DNA of 64,000 nt, taken from the NCBI RefSeq assembly GCF_965363235.1, contig NC_134841.1, positions 39,523,440 to 39,587,439 of the forward strand, given 5' to 3'. The notes below the pieces were generated by a model, which was not told the origin of the DNA, searched no databases, and was given only the letters and a program-made list of their open reading frames with translations. How positions within the stretch are numbered: the first letter of the stretch is position 1; every line of letters begins with the position of its first letter. Made by a program: the position numbers and the translations under genes. Positions 5,562 to 36,478 of the stretch are shown one piece after another. This DNA is from Mytilus galloprovincialis. Its lineage: Eukaryota; Mollusca; Bivalvia; Mytilida; Mytilidae.

Positions 5562-6160
5562 CTATGCTTTGGCTGCCTGACACATTTCACATTGTAATGA
5601 ATTGCCTCCATTTTCATAAGTACATTGTACACAGTTCCACTTTGGTCCACCACCTCCTCCCATACCACCAAATCCTTGACCTCCCTGTCCCATCATTCCT
5701 CCAAATCCTTGACCACCTTGTCCCATCATTCCTCCTATACCCTGACCTCCTTGTCCTTGACCTTGCCCCATCATTCCTCCTAGACCTTGACCTCCTTGTC
5801 CCATCATTCCTGCCAGACCTTGACCTCCTTGACCCATCATTCCTGCCAGACCTTGACCTCCTTGACCCATCATTCCTGCCAGACCCTGACCTCCTTGTCC
5901 ACCCCCTAATCCACCTTGGCCCATTAATCCTGCTAAGCCCTGTCCCCCCATTCCAGCTTGGCCCATCATGCCTGCCAGACCTTGTCCACCTGCCCCTCCC
6001 TGACCCATGAGTCCTGCTAGCCCTCCCCCTCCTCCTTGTGCCATCTGATTCAGTAAATTCATTCCACCTCTTCCTCCTCCCTGTTGAAGCTGAGCTAAGA
6101 AATCCATTCCTCCTGCACCACCTGCCTGTGCCTGTTGAGCTCTCATCTTTTTTTCTTTAT
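5562..6160 (-). CDS. Gene B last exon: Gly/Met tail and NZF zinc finger
   Basis: 599 nt including the stop, acceptor CATTTTAG; residues 826-1024. After KEKKMRAQQAQAGG come about a dozen imperfect copies of a Gly-rich unit (MMGQGGQGLAG type), made of repeats of about 30-36 nt and likely length-variable. The end is a four-cysteine finger W1000, C1002, C1005, T1006-Y1007, N1009, C1016, M1018, C1019. This is the RanBP2/NZF pattern; the T-[FY] and Met positions are those NZF fingers use to bind ubiquitin. An ATG upstream at 6183 lies in the intron. Confidence 0.9.
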
Positions 6161-9100
6161 CTAAAATGATAATGAGATCATGCAATTATGACTGGAATGG
6201 GTGGAATAGTTAGTTATCAAAGGTACCAGAATTATAATTTAGTATGCCAGACACGTGTTTCATCTACATAAGACTCATCAGTGAAGCTCAGTTCAAAATA
6301 GTTATAAAGCCAAATAAGTACAAAGTTGAAGAGCATTGAGGACCCAGAAATTTTACTCAAGGCCTAAATATCTTAATAACATATTTTGCAATTTCAAGGG
6401 TAAAAGTATGGCTCTAAACATACTATCACCTTCCCATGGAATTTTAATGCAAACAAATTTTAAAATCTAATTGAATTACTAATTATCAACAAGTTTTCAT
6501 GTATTTTTTTGTCAAAAGACTTTCAAAATTTTACTAGCTTGTTTGTTTTTGTTGATTTTGATCTGTACAAATTACTGCTCAAAGATATACATCTTGTAAA
6601 CCTTTACCCAAAATGTTTGTACGCAAACATGAAAGTTTGTCAGAAAGATTAACAAACATAAGGATCGACCGATTGAGAATTTTGCTAAATCACCAAATCA
6701 AACAATGATGAGGGAACAAAAATCAATAATATGCAAATATTACCATCTTACTTTATAACAGTAAGTAAAATACTTACATAAATTCCACTCATTGGTTCTT
6801 AGTTTTTCTTGTTCTTGAACTGACATACCTAGATAAGTTAAAGCAACTTCAATGAATAAGTTACAAGGAAAATCAAAATTGAGTAAAATAATACAAAAAT
6901 GGTGTGTTAATAAAAAGCATAACAGAAGTATGGTGTAATTTAACCTAAGGATGAATTATAATGGATTCTTATTGTAAGGATTCCTGCTTCAATTTCAAAA
7001 CTCTCTATTCTTTATATATAAGATCATTTGAACTGAAGTAAAAGATAGATTTAATAGAGTTATAAACAAATTGATATACTAGCTATAGCTCATAGTATTC
7101 TAAAGTTATCTTTCTGAAACCAAATTCAACTATGCTCACTCAGAGATAAGTTAAAAGGCACAACTCTCTAATAGTAGTTGCAGCAGGGAACAGTTAAAAC
7201 TTTCACAGGTATTTCATGGTAAGTAATACATTTGACATCAAAACCACCCCTGTCATATTTTATGTAGGATTTCCCCTGCAAGGGATGTTGACAGAATTAT
7301 CTTGAAATTCTTCATCAAATAAAGTGAATATGTCAAAACAGGCTTACAAAGGAGTGAAAATTTGTTGTAAGCACTTATATACCCATTCCAAACCATCAAA
7401 TATTAGATTAGTAATACAAAAGAGCCATTACTATTGTTTAGTACTTCAAGGGAAATAACTCTGAATGCTCAATATTTTTTTTAATATTTTGCAATAACTT
7501 TTAGGACATCAGCAGTATTTGAACTTGACCAGTACTTCATTCAAAGGATTATTGTTGCAAAGTTTAAACTTTTATTGTACCATCCAAAAACCATCATACT
7601 AATTGAACGTAATTGAAGGGCACAACTATATGACTGTAATTGTTGCAACTGTGGAAGTCAACATTCAACTGCATTTTGTGGTAGTTAGTAATAATGCAAA
7701 ATCATATGGTACTAAACAAAATGGAAACTTAAATAAAAAGGTTGGGAACAAGCTGTACAGGACAAAGATATGGAGAAGCTGCTTGTAAGACTTTTTTCAG
7801 AAAGCATGATAATTCATATATGAATCCTAAATTTGAGCCAATTCTTTAAAGTTAAACATCATTTTCTTATAACGACTTGTTAGAGATTAACATTATACAG
7901 AATACTTACGTAAAAGTTGTATTTCTCCTCTTATAGATGAATCATTAACATTAACATACTCCATTTTGTCAAGGTCAAAATTATATCTGTAAAAGAATTT
8001 TATATAAACATGTTATTAATCAAAATACAAATAGATTTTGAAAAAAAATATTTTTGGACCTTCAAATTCATTTAAAAATTATGGATGCAAGCTATACTTT
8101 ATTGTAGTTTTAACATGGGTAGGCATTATATTCGTGATTATTTTTGCCCAAGCGATAGTAAGGGCTAAAATAACACGAATATAATGCCCACCCATGTTAA
8201 AACTATAATAAGGTATAACTTGCATCAATTATTTCGATTCTGATTAGAAAAATTACAGTAATTTCTATGTCCGATGTGTATAAGTGTATATTGTTTGTGT
8301 AGGCTATTCCATGAACCTCAATCGTTTGTTTGTAAAAAAGCAAATGTCTGGCACTGTAATTTTTCAGAGGGAGGAGTTTGAACATCCAACACGAACAGTG
8401 TCATATCTGGTTCAAATATGTAAAGGAGAAGGTCCGGTAAGGACCGATTTTGGCCTCAAATTTCATGTTCATCTGACGAAAGATTTTGATCACTTTTTAA
8501 ACACTTAAGTGTCTATTTTATTTGCATCAATTAGTTTATGTGAAAGATTTTAACTTATTAAGTCATAAAAAACCCACCGATTCAAGCTGAAATATGAAAA
8601 ATCTACCAAATATGCCGAAAAATGTCATTTTTCAGATGGTTTTTGTCAAAAATGAAAGTGGCCGCATCCGTGTTCATCCTCAACCTTTATATATATTATG
8701 TATTATCATAAAATACAACTTACATTTCAATATTAAGGATGAAAACGAATGCGGCCACTTTCGTTTTACACGAAAACCGTCTAAATTTTAACAAAAATGC
8801 TAGAATTGTAAAGATTTCAGTAAGTTAGCATGACTTAATGGTGCTAGTACCCGATTTTTGTGCATTGTATTGTCAAAATCAGCCCAAATTTATGTAGCAG
8901 AAGCATTCTACTGTCCAATGAATAACTAAAAGTTTACATTTTTACAATTTTGTAAATCTGCTATATTTTGGGGCCAAAAAGGGGTCTTACTGGACCTACT
9001 CCTTTCGGATACAACACATTACAATTATAATAAATGAATTAGAAACAAAATGTGCATCATTTAAAAGTATACAAGTGTTTTAAGTTAATGAAATATATTA

Positions 9101-12100
9101 AATGCATGCCAATTTAATGAAATTCATTATTCTGCAGTAGTCAATATACACATGTGCAAACAAATTTTATTGGATTTAGAGCATGGCTTTGTTCATAAAG
9201 CGAAAGAAGCATGTCATATTAGAATACTTATTTTCATCTATCAACAGGTATGAATTTCAATACAGATCTGCCACTGATAATAAACACCATTTATCATCGT
9301 ACAGCGGATATAGGTACTAACCAAGCGGGCATGAGCGATTTTCGTCTTACACAGTAACGAAAATCTTTGTTTTGCTTTATCAATATTCAATGTACATTTC
9401 TCAACATTTGAAATTCCTGCTCCCAAATAATTTTGGCATCGATTTTTTCCTATTCATAAAAAAACTTTGACATTCTAATAAGAACAATTAACTTGTACAT
9501 GTGCAAATAGTTGTGAATGTCCACACCAACTTTTAATTTCCATACAGTTGTTGAGACATTTACATGTTTTATCTGAAAGAAACCTAATTCAGGGCAAAAG
9601 TAATAGTTACCAATCATAAACCTACCTCTGATTACTCATTCCTTGAAACATTTTGGGTAATAAACGAGTATGAAAATCAAGTTTTTGTGTACGGTTTACA
9701 ACAACTTAACTATGCACCGTACATAAGGATTTATGTGGTCAGCTAAACACTGTACACAATGCTTCTTTCAGGATAAAATATCGAAAAAATAACATAAAGC
9801 AGGCTATCATTTGAACTTGGAATTATTTTTAATTATGGAATTTACATAATTTCTTGTGCTTGCAATTTTTAATGAATTCTATGTGTATTTGGAATTAAAA
9901 TGTTTTGAGCGGTTCATAACACTTTCTATACAATGTATTTTGTATAGATGGTGTTGTGCACGGCACAGTACATTCTATTGAAAATGTACTATCTTATTTG
10001 TAATAGACATTGCTGTGCGCAGCACAGAACATTAAAGCACAGAATAAACATGGAATTTATTAAAAATTTCAAGAACAAGAAATTATGCAAATTCCATAAT
10101 TAAAAATAATTATCTTATTATCGTTCTTGTTTTGGGAAAATAATGAGACATCTCTAATCATCAACCTACGATCAAATCATTTCTTAAAACAGCAATTTTG
10201 TTTAGATTGAAGCACACATTGATATCATGTGAACAAAACAAAGATATTTGTTACTGTGTAAGATCAAAATCACTCATGCCAGATGGTTAGTATCTATACC
10301 CCCTGTACGATGATACACGGTGATAAATTAGCGACTTCATAATCATTATACATAAAAATCTTAGCCTACCCTATTCCTTGTTATAAGATGATGACATTAC
10401 TTTTACTTTAAAAATAAAAGTGTACTCTTACCCTATTCCATGGTGCAAGGTCATGACTATGCCTCTGCGAGCTCTCTGTGTATCTATATGGTTGAGCACT
10501 GTATTATTTGCCTCTTCATCAAGTGTCCTCCATTCCGTAGGACTATCGTCTTTAAATTGATACTGTATCACTGTTTCTGCTGTTAAAAAAATTGTATTGA
10601 TGTTTTAAATTTATGATTCAAATGCAGCATTATCAGTATAACTAGAACACACCCGTGATATCGCGGGTCCATGACTGAATTAAAGTATATAACTATGCGT
10701 ATGCCTTATTTTAGTATTGGTATTGTCATCTGATAAAGTCGTCTGCTTTCAAAATCTTACTGTTTGAACCCGTCGACCTGGAACCTATCAATTATTGGTA
10801 ATATTAATAATTTGGAAAACAAAAGGGCCTGGAATGGAGTATTTTTTACTCAACAGTATACAGCAAAATTATAAATCCACCGTTTGGAGGTGAACCTGGT
10901 CCATGACTGAATTAAAGTATATAACTATGCGTATGCCTTATTTTAGTATTGGTATTGTCATCTGATAAAGTCATGCCGATTATAAAATGCACAATTTTCA
11001 TCATTTTCTTTCAAAATCTTATTGTGTGAACCCGTCGACCTGGAACCTATCAATTATTGGTAATATTAATAATTTGGAAAACAAAAGGGCCTGGAATGGA
11101 GTATTTTTTACTCAACCGTATACAGCAAAATTCTAAATACACCGTTTGGTGGTGCGCCTGTCAGATGCGGAACGTACAGATAAGGTAATAGGTAACAGGT
11201 GAATATACTATTGGTATCGGTGTCGGACTCGATCCGGAACTTCTTAATTATTGGCAATATTAATTACGTGGAAAATAAATGGGCCTGGAGTGGTGTAATT
11301 TTTAATCAACACCATTGTACTATATTAATTATATATAAAAGTGAATTCTTTGATTCATCGTTTTTACGTGATGACGGCTGACAAATTGGACCTCGTAATT
11401 TTAGTATTATAGATATGCATAAGTATAAAGGTTACAAGGTTACAAGGTTTGACTGTATACCCCAAATCCATGACAATTAGTACCTTGGCATATTTGACTA
11501 AAATATTTCAGAGGTTGAAAAACTAGGCAATCCATATTTAATTAATTGATGTCATATGTCTAATATGAAGTTGAACAATTTATTATAATATACATTGTAA
11601 GGTATTGTATCAGGAACCAAGATGATTAAGGGGGTGATCTGTCAGACTGGCAGAAAAAACATAATAATTTTAGAAAAGTACTTACTTATACCCCTATTTT
11701 TTCTTTCTTCTTCATCACTGAAATTTAAAAAAAAAAACCATTCAACTATAACATGTACAAGTTTAATTGATATAATAAAATTTTTCATTCTTGCTATAAC
11801 AATACTGGTAAGTAACTTATGGGCTCTGCAAATTCGCGAATTAATGTGTTGTTCATTCACTGGTTAAATATCCCCCAACCCCACACTTTTTTGCAATAGA
11901 AAATTAAATCCCCTACCCTAATAGGTCAAACTTTTATGAAATAAAATTGAGAAAGGAAATGGTGAATATGTCAAAGCGACAACCACCCGACCATAGAGCA
12001 AACAACAGCCGAAGGCAACCAATGGGTCTTCAATGTAGCGAGAATTCCCGCACCCGTAGGTGTCCTTCAGCTGGCCCCTAAAATATGCATAATAGTACAG

Positions 12101-15100
12101 TGATAATGGACGTCATACTAAACTCCGAATTATACACAAGAAACTACAATTTAAAATCATACAAGACTAACAAAGGCCAGAGGCTCCTGACTTGGGACAG
12201 GCGCAAAATTGCGGCGGGGTTAAACATGTTTATGAGATCTCAACCCTCCCCCTATACCTCTAGCCAATGTAGAAAAGTAAAAGAATAACAATACGCACAT
12301 TAAAATTCAGTTCAAGAGAAGTCCGAGTCTGATGTCAAAAGATGTAACAAAAGAAAATAAATAAAATGACAATAATACATAAATAACAACAGACTACTAG
12401 CAGTTAACTGACATGCCAGCTCCAGACCTCAATTAAACTGATTGAAAGATTATGTCTTCATCATATGAATATCAGGTACAATCCCTCCCGTTAGGGGTTT
12501 AGTATCATACTATCATAAAATATATGAGAAGGACATAACCCGTGTCAAGCATTTACACCATTTTAATTTTATAAAATCTCTTTTTCCATGGATTCAAATA
12601 CCATGTGATGTTAACAGGGGGAACTGAGGTAATCCTGAAGGGTAATTAACTTACATTATTTCTAAGTCAAAGCAGTCATCAGCACCAAATCGGTATCTTT
12701 CTCTTGTACCATTTGGCCATTTCACCTTTTGAATATTGAAAAAGATATAAATTTTAATTCAGTCTTGACGCACACAAAGCACAATAGTTCAAAATATATT
12801 TATAAAAAAATAATATGTCACTACGTACATAGGTATTAGATTAAAATTTCTTTAAAAAAAATAGTCAGTGTTACTCTAACTTGAACTATCATGCTGTATA
12901 AAACATACAATGTCCCTTTAGTATTTTGTAACCCAAAAATAAATCAGTAATTAAAATTCTACTGAAAACATAAACAAGAGGCACACTTGTGCCTGTATCC
13001 CTCACCTAGTAAAACAATAGCCAGTTTGCTAATAAGAAGTTATAATTTTGGCAATTTAATCAAATTGTTAAACCTAGTTTCACTAGTTTTTGAGATAACC
13101 GCTGAAACTGCAAATAAAAATATACATATATTTCAGGGGCAATAATTCTAAAACAGGCTGACTATTTCTTGTTGTTGTGGATACTTTTGTTTCTATAATT
13201 TTATGTTTTACTAGCTCCTTTAGTTTTCATATTAACAGCCAGCATTGCTAAAACTTGGAGAACAATAGTTTTAATGATAACAGTCAATAACTCTGAAAAT
13301 GGGTATAAATCTACAATTCAAGGGCAATAACTCAATATAGCATCCTCAGATTTTTCAGAAATTTTTCATCTAGATAGGAGTTGCCATGATGATCAATTTT
13401 GTAAATTTCACCAAATGACAGGCGACGTGTGATGGAAAAACAGGTATCAGATCTATAAATGTACAGTAGAATTTATGTTAAGGAGGCTCAAGGGTACAAA
13501 AATTTCAGCAAAAATTTAAACATTTTTTTTCATTGCAAATTCTAATTATTTTTGTATTTATTGTACAAAAATCAACCCAAAAAATCAATTCATGTTGGCT
13601 CCAGATGACTATTAAAATGTACATATCATTGAAAAATTATCTCCCTTTGGTTAAAACCAAATGTCATTTATTTGCATTTAAATTTAAATATCTGCTTTTG
13701 CTCATCTGTTACACATATTTTTTTATTATCTTTTAAAAAAAAAAGCTGTACTTCAGGGGGCTTGAAATATCTTTTTTATATAATATAGGATTTCGCTATA
13801 TTTTTTATAAATGAACTTTATCATATACTTAAAAAATAAAATAAAAAAATGGGTTAACCATTCATTTAACTTTACAATCTGCCTCCGAAAGAAGCATACA
13901 TTTTTGTTAATGTCCTTTTTTCTGTTGAACTAATAGAAGAAATAGAGGTAATATCTTAATAAAAAAAGAACTAAATTACAAAGATCGCTTAAATTTTACT
14001 GTTATTTAGTTTATGTCCAGTTTATTTGAATACAATAATAACAAGAATGTGTCCTAAGTACACGGATGACCCATCCGCACTATCATTTTCTATGTTCAGT
14101 GGACTGTGAAAATGGGGTAAAATCTCTAATTTGGCATTAAAATTAGACAGACCATATCATAAGGAACATGTGTACCAAGTTTCAAGTTGATTGGACTTCA
14201 ACTTCATCAAAAACTACCTTGACCAAAAACTTTAACCTGAAGAGGGACAGACGTACGAACGAGCAAAGGAACAGACAGACGAACGGACAGAAGAACAAAC
14301 GAACGAACAGACGGACGGACAAAGGAATGAACAGAAGGACAGACGAACAACAGACGCACAGACCAGAAAACAGAATGCCCATAAATGGGGCATAAAAAAA
14401 TATAGGTCACTAATGAGTTAAACAGTATATTTCAAAACTATTGAAATGGCATTTTTTGCACCAAAGGGAAATAATTTGGAGCTTTTTCAATGATATAAAC
14501 TTTTAAAAGTCATCTTGGGCCCGAAATTGATTTCTATGGTTGATTTTTGTACCATATCATAAAGTAATAACTAATAGTATAATTAATAAAATTTGTAATG
14601 AAAAAACAAATGTTTAATTTTTCACTGAAATTTTTGTACTCTGTAATGTCTTTTTTCGTATATACAATTTTGCCTCCTTAAACTAAACTATTGTTAAATT
14701 TAAATGATTTCTGTAATTTAGTTTGATATTTTCACTATTTCTCCTATTAGTTCAACAGAAAAAAAGTACCTTTTCAAAAATGTATGCTTCTTTCGAAGGC
14801 AGATAGTGAGCTTAAATGAACGGTGAACCCATTTTTAAAATTTTATTTTTCTATTAGAAAAATCCTATATTAAAAAAAAAAAAATTTATATTCGCGAGCC
14901 CCCTTAACTGAAAAAATGTAACACTTACTGTACAAATAACCAACTGTTTTGAATCTACTTACTGTAACCCATTGTTTTGCATGTTTCCTTACAACTATGC
15001 CTATTGATCTTCTACCTCCATCTTCATCACCTTTGTTCCAATGCACACCTGAAAATATATAAAATTTTAAAATATTTACTCTGATATTTTAAGGATTTAA

Positions 15101-24100: not shown

Positions 24101-27100
24101 TTTACATTAACACGTCTTGAATTAACGTAGTAGTGTAGAGTGGGGCGCACAATTTCGCCGTTTTATGATTTTGAGGTGTAAAAACTTCAAAAGATGGCTG
24201 AATTTGGAGAAATATGCAGTTAAATTGTATTTTTATAACAAATATGAATATTCTTTACACTTAGACAACCAGGTGCTCCGCAGGGCACAGCTTTATACGA
24301 CCGCAGAGGTCGAACCCTGAACAGTTGGGGCAAGTATGGACAAAACATTCAAGCGTGATACAGCTCTGAATTTGGATTGTGATCAAATTTTTGACATTAC
24401 ATGGGTTTTTTTTTACACAAAACAAATGTCAAGATTTTACAAATCAATTAAAGATTTCTTCTTCAAACTTTTTAAATCTAAAATTAAATAGTTGACACAG
24501 CATGGTTTCTGACACAGAATGAATGTGGTCTAATGAACTTAAAAGTTTTTTTTTGCCTTTGAGCAATTCACTATGCTGTTGAATATTAATCCTCTCAAAA
24601 AAATGTTTGAAGAAATTTTCTTTTTATTTATGAAATCTGAAATTTAAACCCCCCCCTTTTTTTTTCACATCCCTGTTTCCCTTTTTCCAAAACTGATATC
24701 AATTCAAATTTCTAATGGAGTTTGCAACAATAACTACTCTTTTAAATACATCATAAAATATTAAAATGTAAAATAAAGTGCTTGTTATCACTGAATGGTA
24801 AAGATTGGTTGGTAGTAAAAGTGAATATATACATTGTTTATTGTATAAAACAATAAAAAAAACTTCATCAGCAACATTTTATATTGGCAAATTTCCAATG
24901 AAGTTATTTACATAAAGTTATTGGCAAATAAAAATAGAAAATGACATCATAGTCATGTCTGGCAAATGTCCAACATACATTATCTAAAAACATTTTAGAT
25001 AAGATAAGGAAAAAAAGCTTCATCAGCAACATTTTATATTGGCAAATTTCCAATGAAGTTATTTACATAAAGTTATTGGCAAATAAAAATAGAAAATGAC
25101 ATCATAGTCATGTCTGGCAAATTTCCAACATATATTATCAACTACTATTCTATACAAAGAAAGATAACTCCAATTGAAAATTAATTGCTATTGCACAATA
25201 TCGTGCAATTAGATATTTCTTGCTATTGTGCAATACTGTGCAATTGAAAATTTCTTGCTATTGGACAATACTTGATATGGAATCCTGATTTGGACCAACT
25301 TGAAAACTGGGCCCATAATCAAAAATCAAAGTACATATTTAGATAAAGCATATCAAATAAGCTCAAGAATTTAATTTTTGTTAAAATCAAACTTAGTTTA
25401 ATTTTGGACCCTTTGGACCTTAATGTAGACCAATTTGAAAACTGGACCAAAAATTAAGAATCTACATATACACAGTTAGATTTGGAATATCAAAGAACCC
25501 ATTTATTCAATTTTTGATGAAATCAAACAAAGTTTAATTTTGGACCCCCATTTGGACCAACTTGAAAACTAGGCCAATAATTAAAAATCTAAGTACATTT
25601 TAAAATTCAGCATATCAAAGAACCCCAAGGATTCAATTTTTGTTAAAATCAAACTAAGTTTAATTTTGGACCCTTTGGACCTTAATGTAGACCAATTTGA
25701 AAACGGGACCAAAAATTAAGAATCTACATACATAGTTAGATTCGGCATATCAAAGAACCCCAATTATTCAATTTTTGATGAAAACACACAAAGTTCAATT
25801 TTGGACCCTTTGGGCCCTTTATTCCTAAACTGTTAGGACCAAAACTCCCAAAATCAAACCCAACCTTCCTTTTATGGTCATAAACCTTGTGTTAAAATTT
25901 CATTGATTTCTATTTACTTATACTTAAGTTATTGTGCGAAAACCAAGAATAATGCTTATTTGGGCCCTTTTTTGGCCCTTAATTCCTAAACTGTTGGAAC
26001 CAAAACTCCCAAAATCAATCCCAACCTTCCTTTTGTGGTCATAAACCTTGTGTCAAAATTTCATAGATTTCTATTAACTTAAACTAAAGTTATAGTGCGA
26101 AAACCAAGAAAATGCTTATTTGGGCCCTTTTTGGCCCCTAATTCCTAAAATGTTGGGACCAAAACTTCCAAAATCAATACCAACCTTCCTTTTGTGGTCA
26201 TAAACCTTGTGTTAAAATTTCATAGATTTCCATTCACTTTTACTAAAGTTAGAGTGCGAAAACTAAAAGTATTCGGACGACGACGACGACGACGCCAACG
26301 TGATAGCAATATACGACGAAAAATTTTTCAAATTTTGCGGTCGTATAAAAATGAGGCACTTACCGCAAAGGATAAAAAAATGGACAACGATTTAAGGCCA
26401 ATTTCCTGAATGAAAAACAGGATTTCAAAGAAATATGTCTTAGTAATTCTTTGACTGATTGCCCTTAATTTCAGTCCTTTACATCTTTGAAATGTCTGCT
26501 ATTCATCTATAATGCAATTGATTTGATAAATACTGGTTAAAGCTGCAGTTGTTTGGTTTAAAATAGATGTGGAAAAACGGTGAATATGTGTCCCCCATTG
26601 ACCAAACATTAGGAAATTTCAAACACCCTTTAATCTAACTATTCAGATGATTTGAAAAAGACAATGATATTCATGATATTAAGCATTAGAATTAAATTTT
26701 TATTTTTTTAATTTTTTTTTTCCAAAGGGGGTATAATCGACAAATTTATGTATAGGCACGTGCCTAGTCGAGCCTTAGGTAGCTACGCCCCTGAATAATA
26801 TTCTTTTATAAGAAAAAAATTGATGGCAGACATACAATGCAATATACTGACTTCTAGATGTCTTTAAAAAAAAATTATGTTGCTGGGTTTCTTCTCATTG
26901 ACAACATCTTCTTTTATTAATATTTCTTCAAAATATTGCATACCATCTTTATTGTTACAGTGACAGCATTTAATTTCTAATAGCTTTTACATATAGGTAT
27001 CATACCATCTAAAAATTCATTAACAAATTTTCTAGTTTCTAGCAAGCCACCAGGTCCTGTACTATATGATGTATCTAACAGTAGTAATGTATATAATCCT

Positions 27101-30100
27101 TTAGGTAACTGTTCATTCTTTTACTGTCCACTAAAATAAAGATGCATATTTGAAAGTAGAATAAAAATTGTTTATAACATGCATTTCAGATTTATTAAAA
27201 AACATTTATAATCCTCATACAAGTTTAATTAGAACAAAATGTATCTTCAAGGTAGGCAATTTTGTGTTTTAATACAAACATTATGTTGTTTGATCTCCAA
27301 ACCATATTGAATTCTGCTTTCAAAATGTAATATCAATTGTATTTCCCAAAAGCATATCCTGTCGAGTAACTTGAATGCCCTTGCTCTCTTTTCCATTGTG
27401 GAATGACTTGAAAGGAAGATAACTTTCAAGTATGTAAGATTGATTTGTCTCATCAATAAATATGAAAATACACTTCTTAAACGTTCTGCATTCATTGAAA
27501 AGGATTTGCAAGTAAATATCCTGTTAATTATTATCTTTTTTTTTAAGTTTTCAAATTCAGCATAATAAACTATCTCGATCCCCACAGGTCTAAATCAAAT
27601 TTTTTATTTAATATAGGATTTTGCTATATTTTTCTATAAATGAATTTTATCTTATACTTTATAGAAAAATGAAATAAAAAAATGGGGTCACCGTTCATTT
27701 ACGCTCAGAATCTGCCTTCGAAAGAAGCATACATTTTTACAATATCGAAATAAAAAAGAACTAAATTACAGAAATTGCTGAAATTTTACAATTATTTAGT
27801 TCATGTACAGCTTATTCGAAAACAACAATTAAAAAATGAAAGTCATTTTTGCACCAAAGGGAGATAATTTGGAGCTTTTTTTCAATGATATCTACATACC
27901 ACCTTAGGCCAACACGAATTGATTTTTTTGAATGATTTTTGTACCTTATGATAAGGTAACAACTACTAAAGGTAATCAATAAAATTTGTAATGAAAAATA
28001 AATGTTTGATTTTTTTTCTGAAAATCTTGAACCCGCCTAGCCACTAATATATATAAAAGTTTGAGATAAAAGTACACTGTAAAAAAATTTTGGTAATGAA
28101 TTTTAAAGTAAAGAAGTGATTTGGTCCAGCTGAAAAAGGTTAAAAATTAGCATTTCGGAAGCTGTCAAAATATTTTAAGACCCCCTTAACATTAAATTGT
28201 CCATATTTGGAGTTAGAGTGGATTAATTTTGCCATAATGTTAATATAATTTGTCTCAAAAGTAGTACAACACACTGTACAAATATTATTGTGGGATGTTT
28301 TTAATTTACATTTATTTTCTAAAAGAAATGCACAGTGGGGGTATACCAGCCATCAGTACCAGTAGGTACTGAATGATAACCATAATCAGAGAGCATTAAA
28401 AAGTGTTTTTGAGAGGCCTCAAGCAGGTACGCTCAGGTTCAAATGTTTCTGATACCATGCATATATGGAAAGCAACAACGGGGCATCAAAACTAAAAAAA
28501 ACTGAAAAGACAAATCAAAATATTCTGAGGGTGCTAGCCCAAGTTTTAATTTACAAAAATAATGTATTGATTAATAATGTCAGTATCAAAACGCTTGCAG
28601 CTAGGCAGCTCGTACAATCGGGAACCGATAGTTCACTAGATGTTACAATTTACGTTATTGATTTAAATAAAACATAAAAGAAATATTGAGATAACAGTAC
28701 AATACTCAAACAGGCGAAAACGTGTGTCATCTCAAATCATTTGTCAAAAAAAAAAAAATGTACGAAGCAAAATATTATACTAAAATACAGGTAAAACTCC
28801 ATAGACCATAAGTTTATTGATGCAAATGAAATATAGATTATAACAAGAGAAAAAAAGCGACTAAGCCAAAACAATCTTAGGATAACTTGACCAACAACTA
28901 CAAAACAAGCATACTAAGACAGACTCCGTATTCAGATTAACATTTGGCAATGAAAGTCAGCCTGTTATCATGATAAAGTGAATCACTAGTTTATTCATTA
29001 GCAAAATTTATAATTTCAAAATTTAGATTAAAAGTGCTTTCATTAAAATGAGTAATGAAGCATATGTAAGTGGTGTATTTCCTTTGTGACTGACAGTCAG
29101 TCAAAAGAGTGTGACGACTTGTATTGAATAAACAATGACAATGTCTAAGATGGAAAGAATCTTCTTATTTCTTTAATTTTAAAGCTATGTATTTTCATGA
29201 AATTACGTCGTCAAAAAGTTTTGTTCGTGTCATCTTCAGTTCTACATGTTTTATGATGATATACGTTTTTAATGTACCTACCTGTATTATTCGATAAACT
29301 CAATGTTACATCTATAGTGAAAATGGAAGTGGATTGTAGTTAGGACATAAGGAACATATCTGATATCATCTGTGAAATGGTTATTTAATAACGGTCAACC
29401 AACCTAATGTGATGGCGTCCGTAAATTTCACAAAGGGATGATTTCAACTTCACCATTTGGAACTCTTGGTTTAATAGCTTCCTTGAAAGCAACAATCCTC
29501 TATCAAGAAAATCATTATAAGAAATACAAGCCCAGGAATATTGTATCAATTGGGAGATATATACTCCATATGCAGGCTAATATACTACTTTTAAAACATG
29601 ATTATATATATTATAGAATGCTTCCTGACCTTAAAAGTGTAAGAGGTTTACGCTCTGTCAATTGTCTAGCAATGAATGATAATTGGTAAAAATTTGAAGC
29701 AATACTATAACTTTTCAATGCTGTTATTCATAAATCCACAAACACATGCTGGGACCTTGATTTTACATTTCCCAAGAAATTAATAATCTTCCGAAATTCC
29801 TCCTAGTGAATAAAATGTTTGATAGTCTGATGCAAGCTCGATGCAAGGCTCAAGCACAGAACCTCGAAATAAAAAATTGAGATAATTGTAAAAGGGAAAG
29901 AAATAAAGATGGTTGTATTCTGGTGCTATTTATATATACAAAATAATTACATTCCACAACTTTTTTTTTAAAATAACAAGGTTAAAAAGAATCAATTCTA
30001 CACCTTCCCATAAAATGACTTTAAGAATTCATTACCTGAAAGTTTACTTTCTACAGTCATAGCTATATCAGTGTCCTCCTCAGATTCCTCACCAAGATCT

Positions 30101-33100
30101 CCCGTATCATTATTTTGTGAAACATAACTACTTGAGGCTCCGTTCAACCTCTCATCTCTACTGGATCCTGCTGCCACATTTTTTTGTGATAAATTAGCAT
30201 TAAACAAAGATTCTTGGACAGGTACTCTATGTTGATCTGTCTCTATACTGTTCTGCCTTTGCACATTGGGGACAGGTGATGACCTGCCATTCCCACAACT
30301 TCCTGTGATGTTATTTTGTTTAGGTTCTGTTGCTGACATATGGTTTGGTAGAGTTTTAGCTTTTAGAATATCTGACTCAGAGGAGCTTATTTCAGAAGTC
30401 AAATTTGGTGTTTCAGTTTTTGGTGGCAATGCGTTATGATGTTGTTTTCTTCTGTCCTTTTTTGTCCTAAAACAAATGTATATATTTTGTATTGCAATCT
30501 TGTTAAAATATGAATTTTTAATTAATTTATTTGCTGTATCCTTTCAGATCTTGCTAAAATTAAAGTATCTTGTCGTATTAAATATGTGAAACAAGCAATA
30601 TTTGCATTTTTACTCAGTATTTAATAGATTATATCCAAAACTCAAAATTCTTACTAAAGCAAATTCATGAGTTATAGACTCATGAAAGTCTGTTACTTTT
30701 TTTTTGTAGATTAAGACAACAGGATGTGTTGAAGCAGCAGTTACATAAATAGAATAAAGGAGGACAAAGAATATTTTGTCCTAACAGTGCAACAAAAGAT
30801 AAAAAAGAAGATGTGGTAAGATTGCCAATGAGACATTACTCTCTACATGAGACCAAATGACAAAGAAATTAACAAAGTAGCCAAACAACTTGATAATGAA
30901 ACAGTAAGTTTTTCTATCCAACCGTTATTCTATTTCAATGAACTATACAAGAGTTTTGCATAGACACATAAATGTTTAAGTTTTTGCAATTGAAAAAACT
31001 AAAAACCAATAACCTGTAGTATGATGTAAAATAAAATATTTTTAGAAGTTTTCTCCCTAGAGTACCTGAGATTACCCACTTTTTTTAACAGAATTCATAT
31101 TACTCGATCTTCAGTTTTATATGTGATGATTCTGATTTTTTTTGTCTTTTGCCATCACAACAGTTTTCTTTAACTAATATGAGTATCCAATACCCTCTTA
31201 GGTATTTTCCATATCTTGTTTACCTTGGACTTGTGTCTTCCTCCAAAGAATGGTCTGTAATTAGTGTTGCTCTATCTATGTCTGTGTCGTCTGAGCTCAA
31301 ATCAGATTGTGATCTCTTTCTATAACCTACAATAATCGGTAAAATTATCATGATTTTTATTCTAGTTTTTCAATATTCATCAAACTGTTATTTCAACAAG
31401 CCATTGAATAGAACTTTAGTTGTTTTTTTTTTTATTAGGTCTCTTTGGAATATTTTTAAGGTTTTTAGACAGACAATTTTCTAATCATCAAACTAAAGCA
31501 AATTTATACTATTTATAGTTCATGTCATACAGGTAGTCAAGATAATTCAAATCAGTCAAAGATCTCCGTAAGTACTGAGCTAGTTTTTCAAGGTTAATTT
31601 TTTTTGAAATTGACTAATCAGAATAAAAACACCTAGATGGTAGTAATTCCAAAACAATAAAAAAATGTTTCAAACAGAATTTCAATAAGTACAAAAAGTA
31701 CTGTGGATTCATAATTATTCGTTGGATACCAATTTTCGTGGCTTTCGTGGGTAGAGTCTAACCACGAAATTAAATGTTCAACGAATAACAAATTTTCTAA
31801 AGGCTTGTATGCAGACTTCGGCAAAACAACGAAATTAAATATCCACGAACATGCAAGTTTTCTTTAATCCACGAAAATTGGTACCCACGAAAATAAATGA
31901 ATCCACAGTAGATGGAAATGACAAATATGCCATATATATATACAGGACTCACGTAAAGTATGTATCAATGTGAAACTTAGGTATGACCTGAATGGCAGAT
32001 CCAGGGGAGGGTTGGGGTTCTGGAGTTTGAACCCCCTTTTGTTATATAATCAATGCATTTGAATGGGGACATATAGTTTGAAGTTCATCTTTATCCTGGG
32101 TTGGGATCCCCCTTTAAAAAATGGCTGGATTCACCCCCTGATGACATACATATTGAAATATTTCTTGAGGTTTATCTACCCATTCTGCAGTTCAAAGAGA
32201 TTTTTGGGGTGATCGAGGAAAATGCAATTTTGGTGTTGTTCTTAAATCATTAAATTAACGGTATATTAAATAGTATCTTTGTATCTTCCTCACAGAGAAA
32301 CACATGTTATACAATTCTGAGAAAGCATTATAATTCATTAACAAAAAGATATTCAATAAACATATATTTATTAAATTTCAAGAGCCAAAAAAAACAGAAA
32401 ATGCCTTGTATTATTTTGAGGACCTGACCTTCTTTTTTTAAACTACTTACTGTATCTTAAGAAATTACAATGCACTTCTTATTTTAGAATAAGACAGCTT
32501 CTTACACATACTTAATATGTTATGAATATTTCCTTGTTTAAAATTATTTTTAGTTTTGGTTTTTTCTTCCCACTTCCCTTAGATTGGTAATACATTTATT
32601 ATAATTATATTTAACATTTCAGGGAAATTCGATATCAAAATAAGTGAAACATTTTATAACTTTTTAAATATATTCTATCCTGCTTTTGAAAAAACTAGAG
32701 ATAATTTCTACTATACTTTTATAAGTGATATGGATTCTTAGTTTTGTCAAATCTTCAATAATCTATAATTTTAATCATTTGTTTTATAGATTGTTCAACA
32801 AAGGACAGGACAATTGTCCCAGTACCTTAGTTATTAAAGCATTTTTGTAATGTATGATAGAATGACAGCTATTAATTCTAATGCACTGCGTGCAAGTGAA
32901 ACTATAAGGTTATGACCATGTGACTTTATTTGAAGGTCACAAATTAACTTAAATTTCATGGTCTATTGAGTTTCATGATAAAATTCAGTTTTTACATTTT
33001 GTTTCTATACTGTGAATGAAATCTTAAGCACTTTACATACCCCATATACATCATAATCTTTTCACTTAATGATGTCCTTGTTTCAATCCACATAAAGAAA

Positions 33101-36100: not shown

Positions 36101-36478
36101 ACTCCCCAATCCCCAACTCATAGCCTCTCGTGTTATACAACTACTTTAAATCTTACTTGATAAGTTGAACTGATTTCCAGAAGCACTTCTCATACTTTTG
36201 ACCCAGCTAGTTGTCCTAGTTTCAGGCTCCGAGAATATATTGGAATCTGCTGAAGGATTAGTCTTGGAGTTCATCAAATATTTCAAGTTTGATTTAATTT
36301 TAACATTATCTATTTTCAATCTTTCAATTTCAGACAATACTTTCTGGATTCCACTCGTTAATGTTTGGTGTACATCGTCAATACTTTGTCTAGCCAAATC
36401 CATGGACTGGTGTAAAGATTTGACATCTCTTCGAAGCTTTTTAATGTCTTCCTGATTCTTAGCGGTGGCCTGAGCCAT
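5562..36478 (-). CDS. Gene B: vWA - MIB/HERC2 - WWE - Gly-rich - NZF protein (spliced, complete)
   Basis: Twenty coding exons (listed separately) join with GT/AG sites and matching phases into 3,075 nt, 1,024 residues plus stop. Order by residue: coiled coil about 8-69; serine/acidic linker 100-290; vWA domain about 297-505 with MIDAS residues D308-x-S310-x-S312, T380 and D423 of SDG; degenerate MIB/HERC2-like module about 590-650; canonical MIB/HERC2 module about 664-722; WWE domain about 735-808; basic/Gln linker; Gly-Met-Gln repeat tail 838-997; zinc finger 999-1024. MIB/HERC2 and WWE domains occur in ubiquitin and ADP-ribose pathway proteins and NZF fingers bind ubiquitin, so an adaptor role in ubiquitin signalling is inferred. 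No RING, HECT or RBR is present. I know no named protein with this order. The start ATG at 36478 has an in-frame TGA 24 nt upstream. Introns carry many antisense or inverted repeats. Confidence 0.88.
6230..6345 (+). repeat. 'GACTCATCAGTG' dispersed repeat, copy 1
   Basis: Shares GCCAGAC-C-TGTTT, GACTCATCAGTG and TACAAAGTTGAAGAGCATTG with 44757-44875. A common bivalve dispersed sequence; type unknown. Confidence 0.6.
6778..6828 (-). CDS. Gene B exon: short Gln/Glu linker
   Basis: 51 nt, acceptor TTATCTAG and donor GTAAGTAT; residues 809-825 (MSVQEQEKLRTNEWNL). Short helical linker. Confidence 0.78.
7910..7986 (-). CDS. Gene B exon: second part of WWE domain
   Basis: 77 nt, acceptor TTTTACAG and donor GTAAGTAT; residues 783-808. 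YNFDLDKMEYVNVNDSSIRG fits the WWE pattern 'Y.iDf..M.Q.N...g..R.I'. WWE domains of PARP, Deltex and RNF146 proteins bind ADP-ribose chains; whether this one does is open. Confidence 0.85.
8084..8226. mobile_element. Foldback element 1
   Basis: Arms of about 65 nt (GATGCAAGCTATACTTTATT... / ...AAGGTATAACTTGCATC) pair with few mismatches around a short loop. Lies in the gene B intron between the two WWE exons. MITE-like; superfamily not assigned. Confidence 0.75.
8410..9015. mobile_element. Foldback element 2 with nested arms
   Basis: Outer arms 8416-8462 and 8966-9012 (AAGGAGAAGGTCCGGTAAGG / ACTGGACCTACTCCTTTC) and inner arms 8633-8680 and 8735-8786 (GAAAGTGGCCGCATCCGTG / GCGGCCACTTTCGTTTT) are both inverted. 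Same intron as element 1. Confidence 0.7.
9279..10330. mobile_element. Foldback element 3 with nested arms
   Basis: Outer arms of about 95 nt (9285-9377 and 10233-10325; CTTACACAGTAACGAAAATC / TATTTGTTACTGTGTAAGA) and inner arms near 9818-9875 and 10050-10110 (TTGGAATTATTTTTAATTAT and complement). Same intron as elements 1 and 2. No open frame of note. Confidence 0.7.
10432..10579 (-). CDS. Gene B exon: first part of WWE domain
   Basis: 148 nt, acceptor TTTAACAG and donor GTAAGAGT; residues 734-782. IQYQFKDDSPTEWRTLDEEA resembles the WWE start, with Y-x-F in place of W-x-W and W750 conserved. A helix LNHIDTQRARRG follows. Confidence 0.85.
10645..11385 (+). repeat. Direct repeat, two close copies and a third diverged
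   Basis: Copies at about 10669-10895 and 10902-11155 share CATGACTGAATTAAAGTATA, CCCGTCGACCTGGAACCTAT and GGGCCTGGAATGGAGTATTT. A third, weaker copy runs 11195-11385. The array starts after ACACACCCGTGATATCGCGG. Confidence 0.75.
11686..11717 (-). CDS. Gene B 32-nt microexon
   Basis: 32 nt, acceptor AAATTTCAG and donor GTAAGTAC; residues 723-733 (DEEERKNRGI). An acidic-basic spacer between the MIB/HERC2 module and the WWE domain. Its length is not a multiple of three, so skipping would break the frame. Confidence 0.75.
11941..12547 (-). mobile_element. 5'-truncated Penelope-like element, 3' tail only
   Basis: 607 bp match 53895-54501 with two differences seen by eye (C/A in AAACTACAATTT; G/A in GAGAAGGACAT). 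At the second site the sequence is the 3' untranslated tail of the Penelope-like element, so this copy is a recent insertion truncated about 33 bp after the stop. Lies in a gene B intron. Confidence 0.8.
12655..12725 (-). CDS. Gene B exon: end of MIB/HERC2 module
   Basis: 71 nt, acceptor ATTCAAAAG and donor GTAAGTTA; residues 700-722. VKWPNGTRERYRFGADDCFDL matches the family 'V.WDnG....YR.G..g.yDL' end. Confidence 0.88.
12965..13477. repeat. 'AACAAGAGGC...AGGGCAATAACTC' repeat
   Basis: Begins AACAAGAGGCACACTTGTGC and contains GGGCAATAACTC and TTTTTCAGAAATTTTTCATC. Belongs to the large mollusc repeat group also seen at 16000-16665 and 39180-39720. Confidence 0.5.
13478..14905. repeat. Nested inverted-repeat block
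   Basis: TAAGGAGGCTCAAGGGTACA at 13478 is inverted at about 14640-14690 (TGTACTCTG...GCCTCCTTA). CGAAAGAAGCATACATTTTT at about 13885 is inverted near 14785. Internal order matches 27595-28030. A copy of the ACAAGAATGTGTCC repeat (14041-14397) sits inside. Confidence 0.65.
14041..14397 (+). repeat. 'ACAAGAATGTGTCC...GGGGCATAAA' repeat, copy 2
   Basis: Same ends as copy 1, with an expanded degenerate (GACGAACAGAC)n stretch at about 14245-14360. Inserted in the block 13478-14905; the same block at 27595-28030 lacks it. Confidence 0.75.
14963..15048 (-). CDS. Gene B exon: canonical MIB/HERC2 core
   Basis: 86 nt, acceptor ATTTTCAG and donor GTAAGTAG; residues 671-699. VHWNKGDEDGG and SIGIVV match the family core 'DWkWGdQDGG...GTVV' almost exactly. 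Confidence 0.9.
15057..15190. repeat. 67-bp tandem duplication beside an exon
   Basis: Two copies, period 67 bp, of ATATAAAATTTTAAAATATT...ATATACACAACAT with few differences. The first begins 8 bp from the acceptor side of the gene B exon 14963-15048, so it duplicates the acceptor-proximal intron. Confidence 0.8.
15741..15893 (-). CDS. Gene B exon: module junction
   Basis: 153 nt, acceptor TATTTCAG and donor GTATATAT; residues 620-670. MVVKWDEKP finishes the first MIB/HERC2-like module ('v.V.WD'). DTGCRVIR opens the second. Confidence 0.87.
16000..16670. repeat. Mollusc 'CCATCTTGGTTGGTTTGCCG' repeat
   Basis: Contains GAGGCTCTAAAGAGCTTGTG, AGGGCAATAACTCC-type text, GCTGCCATCTTGGTTGGTT and ends ACGGACGCCAAGTGATGAGA. 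The same end occurs inverted at 57552-57605. Confidence 0.6.
16802..17033 (-). CDS. Gene B exon: acidic linker and first MIB/HERC2-like half
   Basis: 232 nt, acceptor TTTAACAG and donor GTAATATA; residues 543-619. An EPPPEYDDDY patch is followed by PPIGTRVKPG and NGTVV. These match the 'G.RV..G' and 'GTVV' strands of MIB/HERC2 modules. The Trp and the acidic DGG loop of the canonical module are missing, so it is called degenerate. Confidence 0.85.
17196..17446 (+). repeat. 'ACAAGAATGTGTCC...GGGGCATAAA' repeat, copy 3
   Basis: Shortest copy, ending AAATGGGGCATAAAA. In the gene B intron 17034-18910; the rest of that intron shows only a short palindrome AGAAGACTTGAAGTCTTCT at 18534-18552. Confidence 0.7.
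18911..19024 (-). CDS. Gene B exon: linker after vWA
   Basis: 114 nt, acceptor TATTGCAG and donor GTAATTAA, phase 0; residues 505-542. Charged helical linker (ELRDQENRGNVKELIYK) with no recognised domain. Confidence 0.86.
19186..19386. mobile_element. 201-bp MITE with 8-bp target duplication
   Basis: Flanked by CATAGATG at 19178-19185 and 19387-19394. Ends GGGGGAGGCAATA and TATTGTCCCCCT form imperfect inverted repeats. The inside repeats GTTAACTGTT/TTAACATGTTAACA. An 8-bp duplication suits a hAT-like element. Confidence 0.75.
19650..19739 (-). CDS. Gene B exon: end of vWA domain
   Basis: 90 nt, acceptor TTTTACAG and donor GTAAGTTG, phase 0; residues 475-504. RFLKKFTKKGKGQFGQALWS is basic and closes the vWA fold, with a Lys-rich face that may contact an acidic partner. 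Confidence 0.87.
20191..20280 (-). CDS. Gene B exon: vWA helix and strand
   Basis: 90 nt, acceptor TTTTTCAG and donor GTAATATA, phase 0 at both ends; residues 445-474. KFILTAVEIGMDSEE is the late vWA 'i.i..igiG.....' strand. Confidence 0.88.
20464..21432 (+). repeat. R1 dispersed element, copy 1
   Basis: Begins ACCAGATGCTCCGCAGGGCG, ends TTTTTGCGGTCGTATAAAA. Near both ends lies an inverted TTTATACGACCGC / GCGGTCGTATAAA pair (one mismatch here). Inside are tandem sub-repeats of about 120 bp and about 150-175 bp. In a gene B intron, antisense to the gene. Confidence 0.75.
21793..21914 (-). CDS. Gene B exon: vWA SDG strand
   Basis: 122 nt, acceptor TTTTGCAG and donor GTAAATAT; residues 404-444. 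GVRVVMVSDGNVTDE is the vWA 'vivliTDG' strand; D423 completes the MIDAS. Ends at phase 0. Confidence 0.88.
22026..22046 (-). CDS. Gene B 21-nt microexon in the vWA domain
   Basis: 21 nt between acceptor TTTCCACAG and donor GTAATTTA. It encodes seven residues (VPSPSDQ). Both flanking junctions are phase 1, so skipping it keeps the frame. This suits a cassette exon that varies a surface loop of the vWA domain. Confidence 0.65.
22331..22408 (-). CDS. Gene B exon: vWA MIDAS threonine
   Basis: 78 nt, acceptor TTGACAG and donor GTATGTTT; residues 371-396. AGRTNLWSALLGVLCY matches the vWA 'gGgT....al..a' region and supplies the MIDAS threonine, T380. Confidence 0.87.
22618..22790. repeat. Relic of the 2.2-kb TIR element's terminal repeat
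   Basis: TTACCTATTGTTCAACC, CTACCTGTATAATTTTTTAT, CAGCATGCATTTTTGCTGAA and TTAGGGTTTTTCTAT match, with divergence, the left terminal repeat at 60130-60330. Confidence 0.55.
23662..23781 (-). CDS. Gene B exon: vWA domain
   Basis: 120 nt, acceptor TTTTACAG and donor GTTGGTAT; residues 331-370. It encodes the second vWA strand, VGVFEFGSHAGILHEFTNDY, where vWA domains usually have the 'v.vv.Fs....l..lt' pattern. Confidence 0.88.
23867..26793. mobile_element. hAT-like element carrying a nested R1 copy
   Basis: Outer ends CAGGGGCGTAG and CTACGCCCCTG are inverted; AATAA flanks both sides. R1 copy 2 occupies 24268-26350, so the element alone is about 0.84 kb and probably non-autonomous. No transposase frame seen. 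In the gene B intron between the first two vWA exons. Confidence 0.65.
24268..26350 (+). repeat. R1 dispersed element, copy 2
   Basis: Longest copy, from ACCAGGTGCTCCGCAGGGCA to TTTTGCGGTCGTATAAAA. It holds a 155-bp tandem pair (24860-24998, 25015-25140; CTTCATCAGCAACATTTTAT), then 'TTTGGACCTTAATGTAGACC' and 'TTGGGCCCTTTTTGGCCC' arrays, then a (GAC)n run before the end. Confidence 0.75.
27006..27108 (-). CDS. Gene B exon: start of vWA domain
   Basis: 103 nt, acceptor GAACAG and donor GTATGATA; residues 297-330. It encodes LLLLDTSYSTG, the first strand and MIDAS loop (D-x-S-x-S) of a von Willebrand A domain, then a helix (LLETRKFVNEFL). An alternative AG 9 nt upstream would add three residues in frame. 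Confidence 0.85.
27595..28180 (+). repeat. Uninterrupted relative of block 13478-14905
   Basis: Shares ATATAGGATTT-GCTATATTTT, TGCCTTCGAAAGAAGCATAC and TGCACCAAAGGGAGATAATT in the same order, without the inserted ACAAGAATGTGTCC repeat. Confidence 0.65.
28181..30003. other. Gene B intron, nothing recognised
   Basis: Only short open frames (28465-28677 and 29438-29689, plus strand) without family features, codon signal or splice support. I see no repeat family here. Confidence 0.4.
30004..30466 (-). CDS. Gene B exon: long low-complexity linker
   Basis: 463 nt from acceptor TGTTTTAG to donor GTGTAG; residues 142-296. It begins basic (TKKDRRK), then is rich in Ser, Asn, Gln and Pro, and ends with an acidic patch (EESEEDTD) before SFYGK. 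The phase required by the next exon is met only by this donor. The intronic GTG TAG would stop translation at once if the intron were kept. A better-looking donor GTAATG at about 30034 gives the wrong phase for the next exon. Confidence 0.78.
31224..31326 (-). CDS. Gene B exon: Ser/Asp-rich linker
   Basis: 103 nt between acceptor TTGTAG and donor GTAAAC; residues 108-141 plus a split codon. It encodes an acidic, Ser-rich stretch (SDLSSDDTDID) with a preceding basic RKR, probably disordered. Confidence 0.8.
31701..31908. mobile_element. Tc1/mariner-like MITE
   Basis: CTGTGGATTCAT...ATGAATCCACAG flanked by TA on both sides (31699-31700, 31909-31910). The inverted ends extend inward (CCAATTTTCGTGG / CCACGAAAATTGG). 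208 bp without coding capacity. Confidence 0.75.
31990..32140. mobile_element. hAT-like MITE
   Basis: TGAATGGCAGATCCAGGGG at the left and CTGGATTCACCCCCTG at the right are degenerate versions of the CAGTGGCGGATCCAGGG end. ATGAC occurs on both flanks. Same class as 46-201 and 40899-40976. Confidence 0.5.
33606..35487. mobile_element. TIR element carrying a nested R1 copy
   Basis: Ends CAGTGTTCTAGC and GCTAGAACACTG are perfect 12-bp inverted repeats; TACCAC flanks both sides. R1 copy 3 (33954-35420) is inserted next to GGCAGGGCGCCC. Without it the element is about 0.41 kb. hAT-like by its CAG...CTG ends. Confidence 0.7.
33954..35420 (+). repeat. R1 dispersed element, copy 3
   Basis: From ACCAAATGCTCCACAGGGCG to TTTTTGCGGTCGTATAAAA. 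Open frames in it (such as 34458-34886) only reflect its tandem sub-repeats. Confidence 0.75.
35753..35831 (-). repeat. Diverged fragment of the Penelope-like tail
   Basis: AAAATTGAGAATGGAAATGG...AATGTGTCAAAGTGACAACA...AGACAACAGCAGAAGG matches the first 80 bp of 11941-12547 with several changes: an older insertion. Confidence 0.6.

Follow-up and report, generated by a model that had tools for sequence, protein, structure and literature searches.

A predicted Mytilus galloprovincialis gene with vWA, MIB/HERC2, WWE-like and NZF modules in a novel-looking order belongs to a family clustered on one contig

We analyzed a window of 64,000 nucleotides of Mytilus galloprovincialis DNA (contig C4, positions 39523440-39587439; the genome searched comprised 1.385 Gb in 331 contigs). 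Judged from its sequence, the window carries a real gene of a real family that is clustered on this one contig, with a module order that looks novel and a single exon join that is unsettled. As assembled, the gene lies on the minus strand from 36478 to 5562 and has 19 exons that encode 1020 aa and end in a single terminal stop. The first-pass annotation had given 20 exons and 1,024 residues; a gene of many exons in this interval is upheld, and the two counts are revised.

The exon model was obtained by listing open frames, scoring candidate exons, reading the three frames around each and then assembling them. A home-made exon-chaining procedure was rejected as it over-predicted (58, 69 and 49 exons, later 32, 23, 21 and 17), and the exons were therefore curated by eye. 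Small chained exons inside the gene (e.g., 29311-29282 and 22046-22026) were left unused, being phase-neutral and poorly supported, and a retroelement-like stretch at 29385-29576 was rejected as coding sequence of the gene. The exons of the model, with the evidence for each, are as follows.

36157..36478, minus strand: exon 1, start codon and coiled-coil segment, aa 1-107 (open frame, donor 7.4)
31224..31326, minus strand: exon 2, acidic/serine-rich linker (acceptor 6.3, donor 6.5)
30004..30466, minus strand: exon 3, low-complexity linker (end uncertain, at the weak donor 30004 or the strong donor 30036)
27006..27117, minus strand: exon 4, start of the vWA domain with the MIDAS motif DTSYS (acceptor uncertain, 27117 being weak and 27130 stronger and out of frame)
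23662..23781, minus strand: exon 5, vWA (Pfam; 46% identical exon at C4:39378516)
22331..22408, minus strand: exon 6, vWA with the MIDAS Thr, GRTNL (gene model; P2 alignment)
21793..21914, minus strand: exon 7, vWA with the MIDAS Asp, VSDGN (gene model; P2 alignment)
20191..20280, minus strand: exon 8, vWA (gene model; P2 alignment)
19650..19739, minus strand: exon 9, end of the vWA domain (donor 12.9; P2 alignment)
18911..19024, minus strand: exon 10, linker (phases equal to those of P2 and P3)
16802..17033, minus strand: exon 11, linker followed by the first half of MIB/HERC2 module 1 (profile score and alignment; weak donor, 2.7)
15741..15893, minus strand: exon 12, second half of MIB module 1, which is degenerate, followed by the start of module 2 (profile score and alignment)
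14963..15048, minus strand: exon 13, MIB/HERC2 module 2 (Pfam MIB_HERC2; human MIB1 match)
12655..12725, minus strand: exon 14, end of MIB/HERC2 module 2 (Pfam; acceptor 3.5)
11686..11717, minus strand: exon 15, short linker of 32 bases (P2 and P3 counterparts of 290 and 110 bases, respectively)
10432..10579, minus strand: exon 16, first part of the WWE-like domain (own-genome profile; place and phases as in the WWE exons of P2 and P3)
7910..7986, minus strand: exon 17, second part of the WWE-like domain (YNFDLDKMEYVNV; Tyr at the usual Gln) (own-genome profile)
6778..6828, minus strand: exon 18, linker (gene model)
5562..6160, minus strand: exon 19, repeat tail rich in Gly, Met and Gln, then the C-terminal NZF zinc finger and the stop (tandem repeats; TRABID NZF1 match)

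The heptad pattern of exon 1 had a score that was reached by only three of 5000 shuffles. Outside the join of exons 3 and 4, which is discussed below, the remaining exons are open, their weak sites being the donor of exon 11 and the acceptor of exon 14.

The vWA domain was identified in the whole protein by two Pfam models, VWA_2 (E=4e-9, 37.5 bits, cut-off 27) and VWA (E=4.3e-6, 27.5 bits, cut-off 23.8), and the alignment with the paralogue P2 (see below) indicated that the MIDAS residues D-T-S-x-S, T and D are intact and common to both genes. Matches of this domain to PDB were weak (Integrator subunit 14, E=0.17), and the NCBIfam search reached only E=0.011. The second MIB/HERC2 module (aa 661-719) is clear: it matched Pfam MIB_HERC2 (PF06701) with E=2.6e-15 and 56.5 bits against a cut-off of 33.5, the human MIB1 chain 4xi6_A in PDB (E=3.2e-14) and chains of HECTD1 (E=4.4e-9 and 3.4e-8). 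To a home-made MIB profile it scored 60.4 bits, with 13.6 bits as the best of 2000 shuffles. The first module had no match to PF06701 and no useful match in PDB, nor could it be aligned with module 2 by BLASTP; its score to the home-made profile was 19.0 bits (best of 2000 shuffles 13.0), covering positions 1-41 of 60. The two home-made profiles, for MIB and WWE, comprised 10 and 12 sequences, some of them fragments and all from the same genome, with P2 and P3 included. At the level of sequence, the protein has a clear MIB/HERC2 module (module 2) and a partly decayed one (module 1), together with a divergent WWE-like domain. The set of domains named in the first-pass annotation (vWA, MIB/HERC2, WWE and zf-RanBP) was therefore recovered in part by the HMM searches: the vWA and MIB module 2 were found, MIB module 1 and the WWE were missed by Pfam and PDB and detected weakly by the own-genome profiles, and the RanBP finger remained below the Pfam cut-off.

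The order of the modules recurs in two paralogues. A search of the genome with the first 834 residues returned 26 matches. Of these, 16 are single matches to exons of the gene itself, nine are distant MIB exons located on other contigs, and the last is a related vWA exon situated approximately 170 kb away on C4. At this related vWA exon (C4:39378516), on the same strand, is the paralogue we designate P2, in which a coiled-coil exon is followed by vWA exons, by two MIB modules and by a WWE exon, and a third copy, P3, is located at C4:34.36-34.39 Mb. When the pieces of each were joined and searched against Pfam, P2 matched VWA_2 (4.1e-15), MIB_HERC2 in two stretches (4.4e-28) and WWE (6.4e-7), and P3 matched the same three models (3.1e-10, 8.7e-21 in two stretches and 2.3e-7, respectively). 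The second half of the P3 vWA had no Pfam match by itself, with an hhalign probability of 3.4%, and passes Pfam together with the first half. Identity is low, at 31% for the vWA with P2 and 27-28% over both MIB modules. Over the stretch that begins with the second vWA exon and ends with the first WWE exon, the intron phases in and out agree at 12 of 12 exons with P2 and at all 11 found with P3, in a comparison of exons that were hand-picked by resemblance and score from candidate lists and with the first vWA exon excluded (phase 1 in P2 and P3, phase 0 here). Such an agreement in order and phases, at such low identity, would be difficult to account for if the exons between the vWA and the WWE did not form a single gene. 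The order vWA-MIB-MIB-WWE is genuine, common to two paralogues at matching intron phases and not an accident of a single gene.

Long exons that are coiled-coil-like by eye were also seen before the vWA exons of two neighboring copies (C4:34357260-34357851 and C4:34388072-34388750), which suggests that a coiled-coil-like exon in front of the vWA is a trait of the family.

When the genome was searched with a piece of P3, 83 exons matched, of which 70 are on C4. These 70 rows and 12 C4 rows from other searches were grouped into clusters, leaving out the WWE row at C4:101147814 and, for one of those searches, the rows within P2, within this gene or at places already included; clusters were cut at a backward domain order or a gap of >45 kb, and the order in partial clusters is in part imposed by this procedure. 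There are 23 clusters on C4 besides this gene, and about two dozen C4 loci carry parts of the domain set. One of the 23 is a single exon (39373803) that is part of P2, the other exons of P2 having come from the search whose P2 rows were left out, and another, which is weak, pairs vWA and WWE exons 41 kb apart (54.58-54.62 Mb). The order vWA-MIB-MIB-WWE was found in three of the 23 clusters (at 23.18 Mb, at 34.34 Mb and, for P3, at 34.37 Mb), in P2 and in this gene, with the vWA at 23.18 and 34.34 Mb seen solely as exons resembling the later vWA exons of P3. A WWE exon is present in 10 of the clusters and a vWA exon in four, and the absence of either from the others may be due to divergence beyond the reach of the search. 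A genome scan for the vWA family, in which 150 of 267 candidates were scored, was swamped by other vWA genes and was excluded from the family count. No relative was confirmed in the viral contigs or in the bacterial and archaeal genome contigs. An expansion in this genome is supported by the 23 additional clusters on one contig.

The genome also has a second set of MIB_HERC2 genes, consisting of the loci L001-L008 and other matches on contigs C13, C14, C11 and C1. ZZ-like exons follow, by eye, in L001, L003 and L007, and the set looks like an expansion of Mind-bomb-like genes. According to the excerpt consulted, the Mib-herc2 orthogroup OG314 has 15.1 genes per bivalve species versus 0.4 in other molluscs (PMC8382680), a similar expansion of Mib-herc2 in bivalves; the description of OG314 in that excerpt is without an architecture. 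OG314 may correspond to the C4 family or to the MIB genes on the other contigs. If it is the same family, then the one-line entry "Mib-herc2, expanded in bivalves" (PMC8382680) gains a concrete architecture and binding sites that can be tested.

The join between exons 3 and 4 bears on whether exons 1-3 belong to the gene. Exon 3 can end at donor 30036 (score 7.9, phase 1) or 30004 (4.2, phase 0), and the vWA exon can start at acceptor 27130 (5.0) or 27117 (-1.7), the latter being the third AG after the pyrimidine tract. The pair 30036/27130 joins out of frame and leads to an early stop, whereas 30004/27117 keeps the frame. The claim in the first-pass annotation that every splice phase is consistent consequently holds with the weak donor and acceptor and fails with the stronger pair, where a stop follows soon after the join. 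The corresponding vWA exon begins in phase 1 in both paralogues, as it would with the stronger pair, but in phase 0 in our gene model. Either the weak sites are truly used, or a base is missing from an A-run (in the assembly or the animal), or exons 1-3 are a separate transcript; the part of the protein from the vWA to the NZF is independent of which of these is correct. One joined gene is favored by P2 and P3, in each of which a long exon precedes the vWA; that of P2 is coiled-coil-like by the heptad test (0/5000 shuffles), that of P3 by eye.

An alternative is that the region holds two transcription units: exons 1-3 would encode a short coiled-coil protein, and the vWA-MIB-MIB-WWE-NZF protein would start from a first exon of its own. 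This seems to us quite improbable. Exon 3 is open in frame up to a TAG just after 30004 and the join at the stronger sites is out of frame, as would be expected of two units; however, the interval from about 30.3 to 27.0 kb showed no convincing first exon with an ATG, and in P2 and P3 the exon directly before the vWA leaves in the phase that the vWA exon needs. The finding that a second paralogue, P3, also has an upstream exon in a fitting phase made two units less likely. The same paralogue had the opposite effect on another explanation, that the gene is a decaying or allele-broken member of the family in which the loss of one base in the A-run near 27118, in the animal or the assembly, breaks the frame: P3 shows the phase-1 entry too, which made a broken frame more likely. 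Consistent with such a loss, the strong donor and the first AG miss the vWA frame by one base, and those strong sites would give the entry phase seen at the matching exon of P2 and P3. Nevertheless, the other exons are open (although the donor of 2.7 and the acceptor of 3.5 are weak), the MIDAS residues are intact and a phase-consistent alternative with weak sites exists, and we consider a broken frame unlikely, if worth bearing in mind. A second copy of the vWA start exon for comparison was not found in the assembly.

The WWE region had no match to Pfam PF02825 and no useful match in PDB, and its assignment comes from the home-made profile, to which it scored 19.5 bits (best of 2000 shuffles 9.2), and from its position: P2 and P3 have their first WWE exon, which passes Pfam in each, at the same place and in the same phases as the WWE exon here. 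A second WWE exon was not found in P2 or P3, one weak P2 match (E=0.57) having been rejected. At the column where six of the seven other own-genome WWE matches that reach it have Gln (counted by eye, with one cut-off match included), this WWE has Tyr. We take the adenine-binding Gln of WWE domains to be the one two residues after the conserved Met. The protein could be envisaged as a poly-ADP-ribose reader that ties ADP-ribosylated proteins to ubiquitin signaling, like RNF146 or Deltex but with no ligase domain, and the presence of a WWE-like domain, by profile and position, together with an NZF is in keeping with such a role. However, in the structures of E3 WWE domains a highly conserved Gln contacts adenine, as stated in the excerpt of PMC11269756 that was consulted, and the Tyr in the column of that Gln makes a poly-ADP-ribose reader very unlikely in our view. 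The recognition of ADP-ribose suggested by the first-pass annotation is weakened accordingly, and it is doubtful in this member because the Tyr replaces the usual Gln and the WWE is divergent. While ADP-ribose reading by this member is unlikely, its WWE is more likely to have a structural or protein-contact role.

The tail encoded by exon 19 is composed of tandem 33-bp and related units and is followed by the NZF finger. A RanBP zinc finger was detected by Pfam with E=0.0027 in the whole protein and E=1.6e-5 when searched alone, both below the cut-off, and the finger matched TRABID NZF1 in PDB (4s1z_F, E=7.1e-7). The four Cys and the T-Y/F-Phi motif (CTYEN...CEMC), which is described for NZF fingers in the excerpt of PMC4386031 available to us, are present. 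As predicted from the alignment, the finger retains the Thr, Tyr and Met at the TRABID ubiquitin-contact positions, whereas TRABID W18 and T25 are replaced by Gly and Glu. In the same excerpt these two TRABID residues are tied to K29/K33 binding, and TAB2 has Glu at the second place (PMC4386031). Since both are replaced, the K29/K33 preference of TRABID is not expected here. This gene was the sole match to the NZF in the genome at E≤0.01, and the gene strand showed no NZF-like pattern over 60 kb surrounding P2 and 30 kb surrounding P3. Hence, of the seven-part order in the first-pass annotation, vWA-MIB-MIB-WWE is common to two paralogues, and the case for the full order as a family trait is weakened by an NZF that was found once in the genome.

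We propose, with about even confidence, that the gene product is an intracellular, non-catalytic and ubiquitin-linked adaptor of the vWA-MIB-MIB-WWE family, the intracellular location being deduced from the types of domains. A search of the whole protein against Pfam at E≤1 found no ligase or other plausible enzyme domain, as the first-pass annotation had stated for ligases; the sole name derived from an enzyme was Malt_amylase_C (0.25). The earlier idea of a multivalent scaffold is still the likeliest class. In such an adaptor, the vWA would hold a partner protein through its metal site and the MIB pair may grip a short peptide, by analogy with Mind bomb, in which the MIB-ZZ-MIB part binds the tails of Notch ligands (PMC11887331, as excerpted). 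The NZF would bind ubiquitin, on the same or a neighboring protein, via the Ile44 patch of ubiquitin, and the protein would thereby bring ubiquitylated cargo and client together, possibly oligomerizing via the coiled coil and the tail. More speculatively, the intracellular vWA-MIB-MIB-WWE adaptors could form a client-recognition system of bivalves in which diversified members bind different clients and the member with the NZF and Gly-rich tail (only one was found) ties the family to ubiquitin signaling, although we think this unlikely on present evidence. The NZF-bearing member offers a simple biochemical entry point, through the binding of ubiquitin chains and whatever the vWA and MIB modules hold.

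The gene has partial counterparts in several known systems. With the N-terminal MIB-ZZ-MIB of Mind bomb (MIB1/MIB2) it shares two MIB/HERC2 modules, of which module 2 matches human MIB1, but it lacks a ZZ, ankyrin or RING domain in Pfam at E≤1 and has a vWA in front and a WWE behind; the combination of MIB-ZZ-MIB, ankyrin repeats and RING fingers that defines the Mind bomb family was not found in its product. Module 2 also matches the MIB/HERC2 domain of HECTD1 chains, but unlike HECTD1 and HERC2 the gene has no HECT domain in Pfam. The WWE-like domain, identified by profile, is reminiscent of the E3 ligases RNF146, Deltex, HUWE1 and TRIP12, from which the gene differs in having no RING, HECT or Deltex C-terminal domain (Pfam) and Tyr for the usual Gln. 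Its C-terminal NZF, with T-Y and Met at the TRABID ubiquitin-contact positions, resembles NZF1 of TRABID/ZRANB1 and the NZF of TAB2, whereas the OTU protease domain of TRABID is lacking (Pfam) and Gly and Glu stand for its W18 and T25. PSMD4/Rpn10, a proteasomal ubiquitin receptor, has a non-catalytic vWA and UIMs and no MIB or WWE; the likeness to it, a non-catalytic vWA with a ubiquitin-binding element, is by analogy only, the element being an NZF here and UIMs there. No published protein with this architecture was present among the literature matches listed (in one case the best 20 of 7,631), with subscription journals mostly outside the coverage, and the first-pass annotation likewise knew of no described protein with this order.

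Scans for Rfam families and tRNA genes returned nothing in the window. The minus strand at 54535-56610 contains a 480-aa and a 210-aa open frame, both long and reverse transcriptase-like, with a YLDD motif by eye, although the 480-aa frame had no significant Pfam match. A stretch similar to these frames, also by eye, occurs at 29385-29576 in an intron of the gene. Tandem repeats with units of 126-161 bp that belong to shared families are present at 20699-21354, 25428-26263, 34324-35379 and 48690-49829, three of them in introns of the gene. A 300-base direct repeat with 100% identity has its copies 42 kb apart, at 11940-12239 (in an intron of the gene) and 53894-54193, which suggests a recently moved element. 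Lastly, a short open frame at 51665-51895 (KARHRDSD...LDLIFMVQ) has a similar counterpart at L004 on contig C13 and is probably part of a mobile element.
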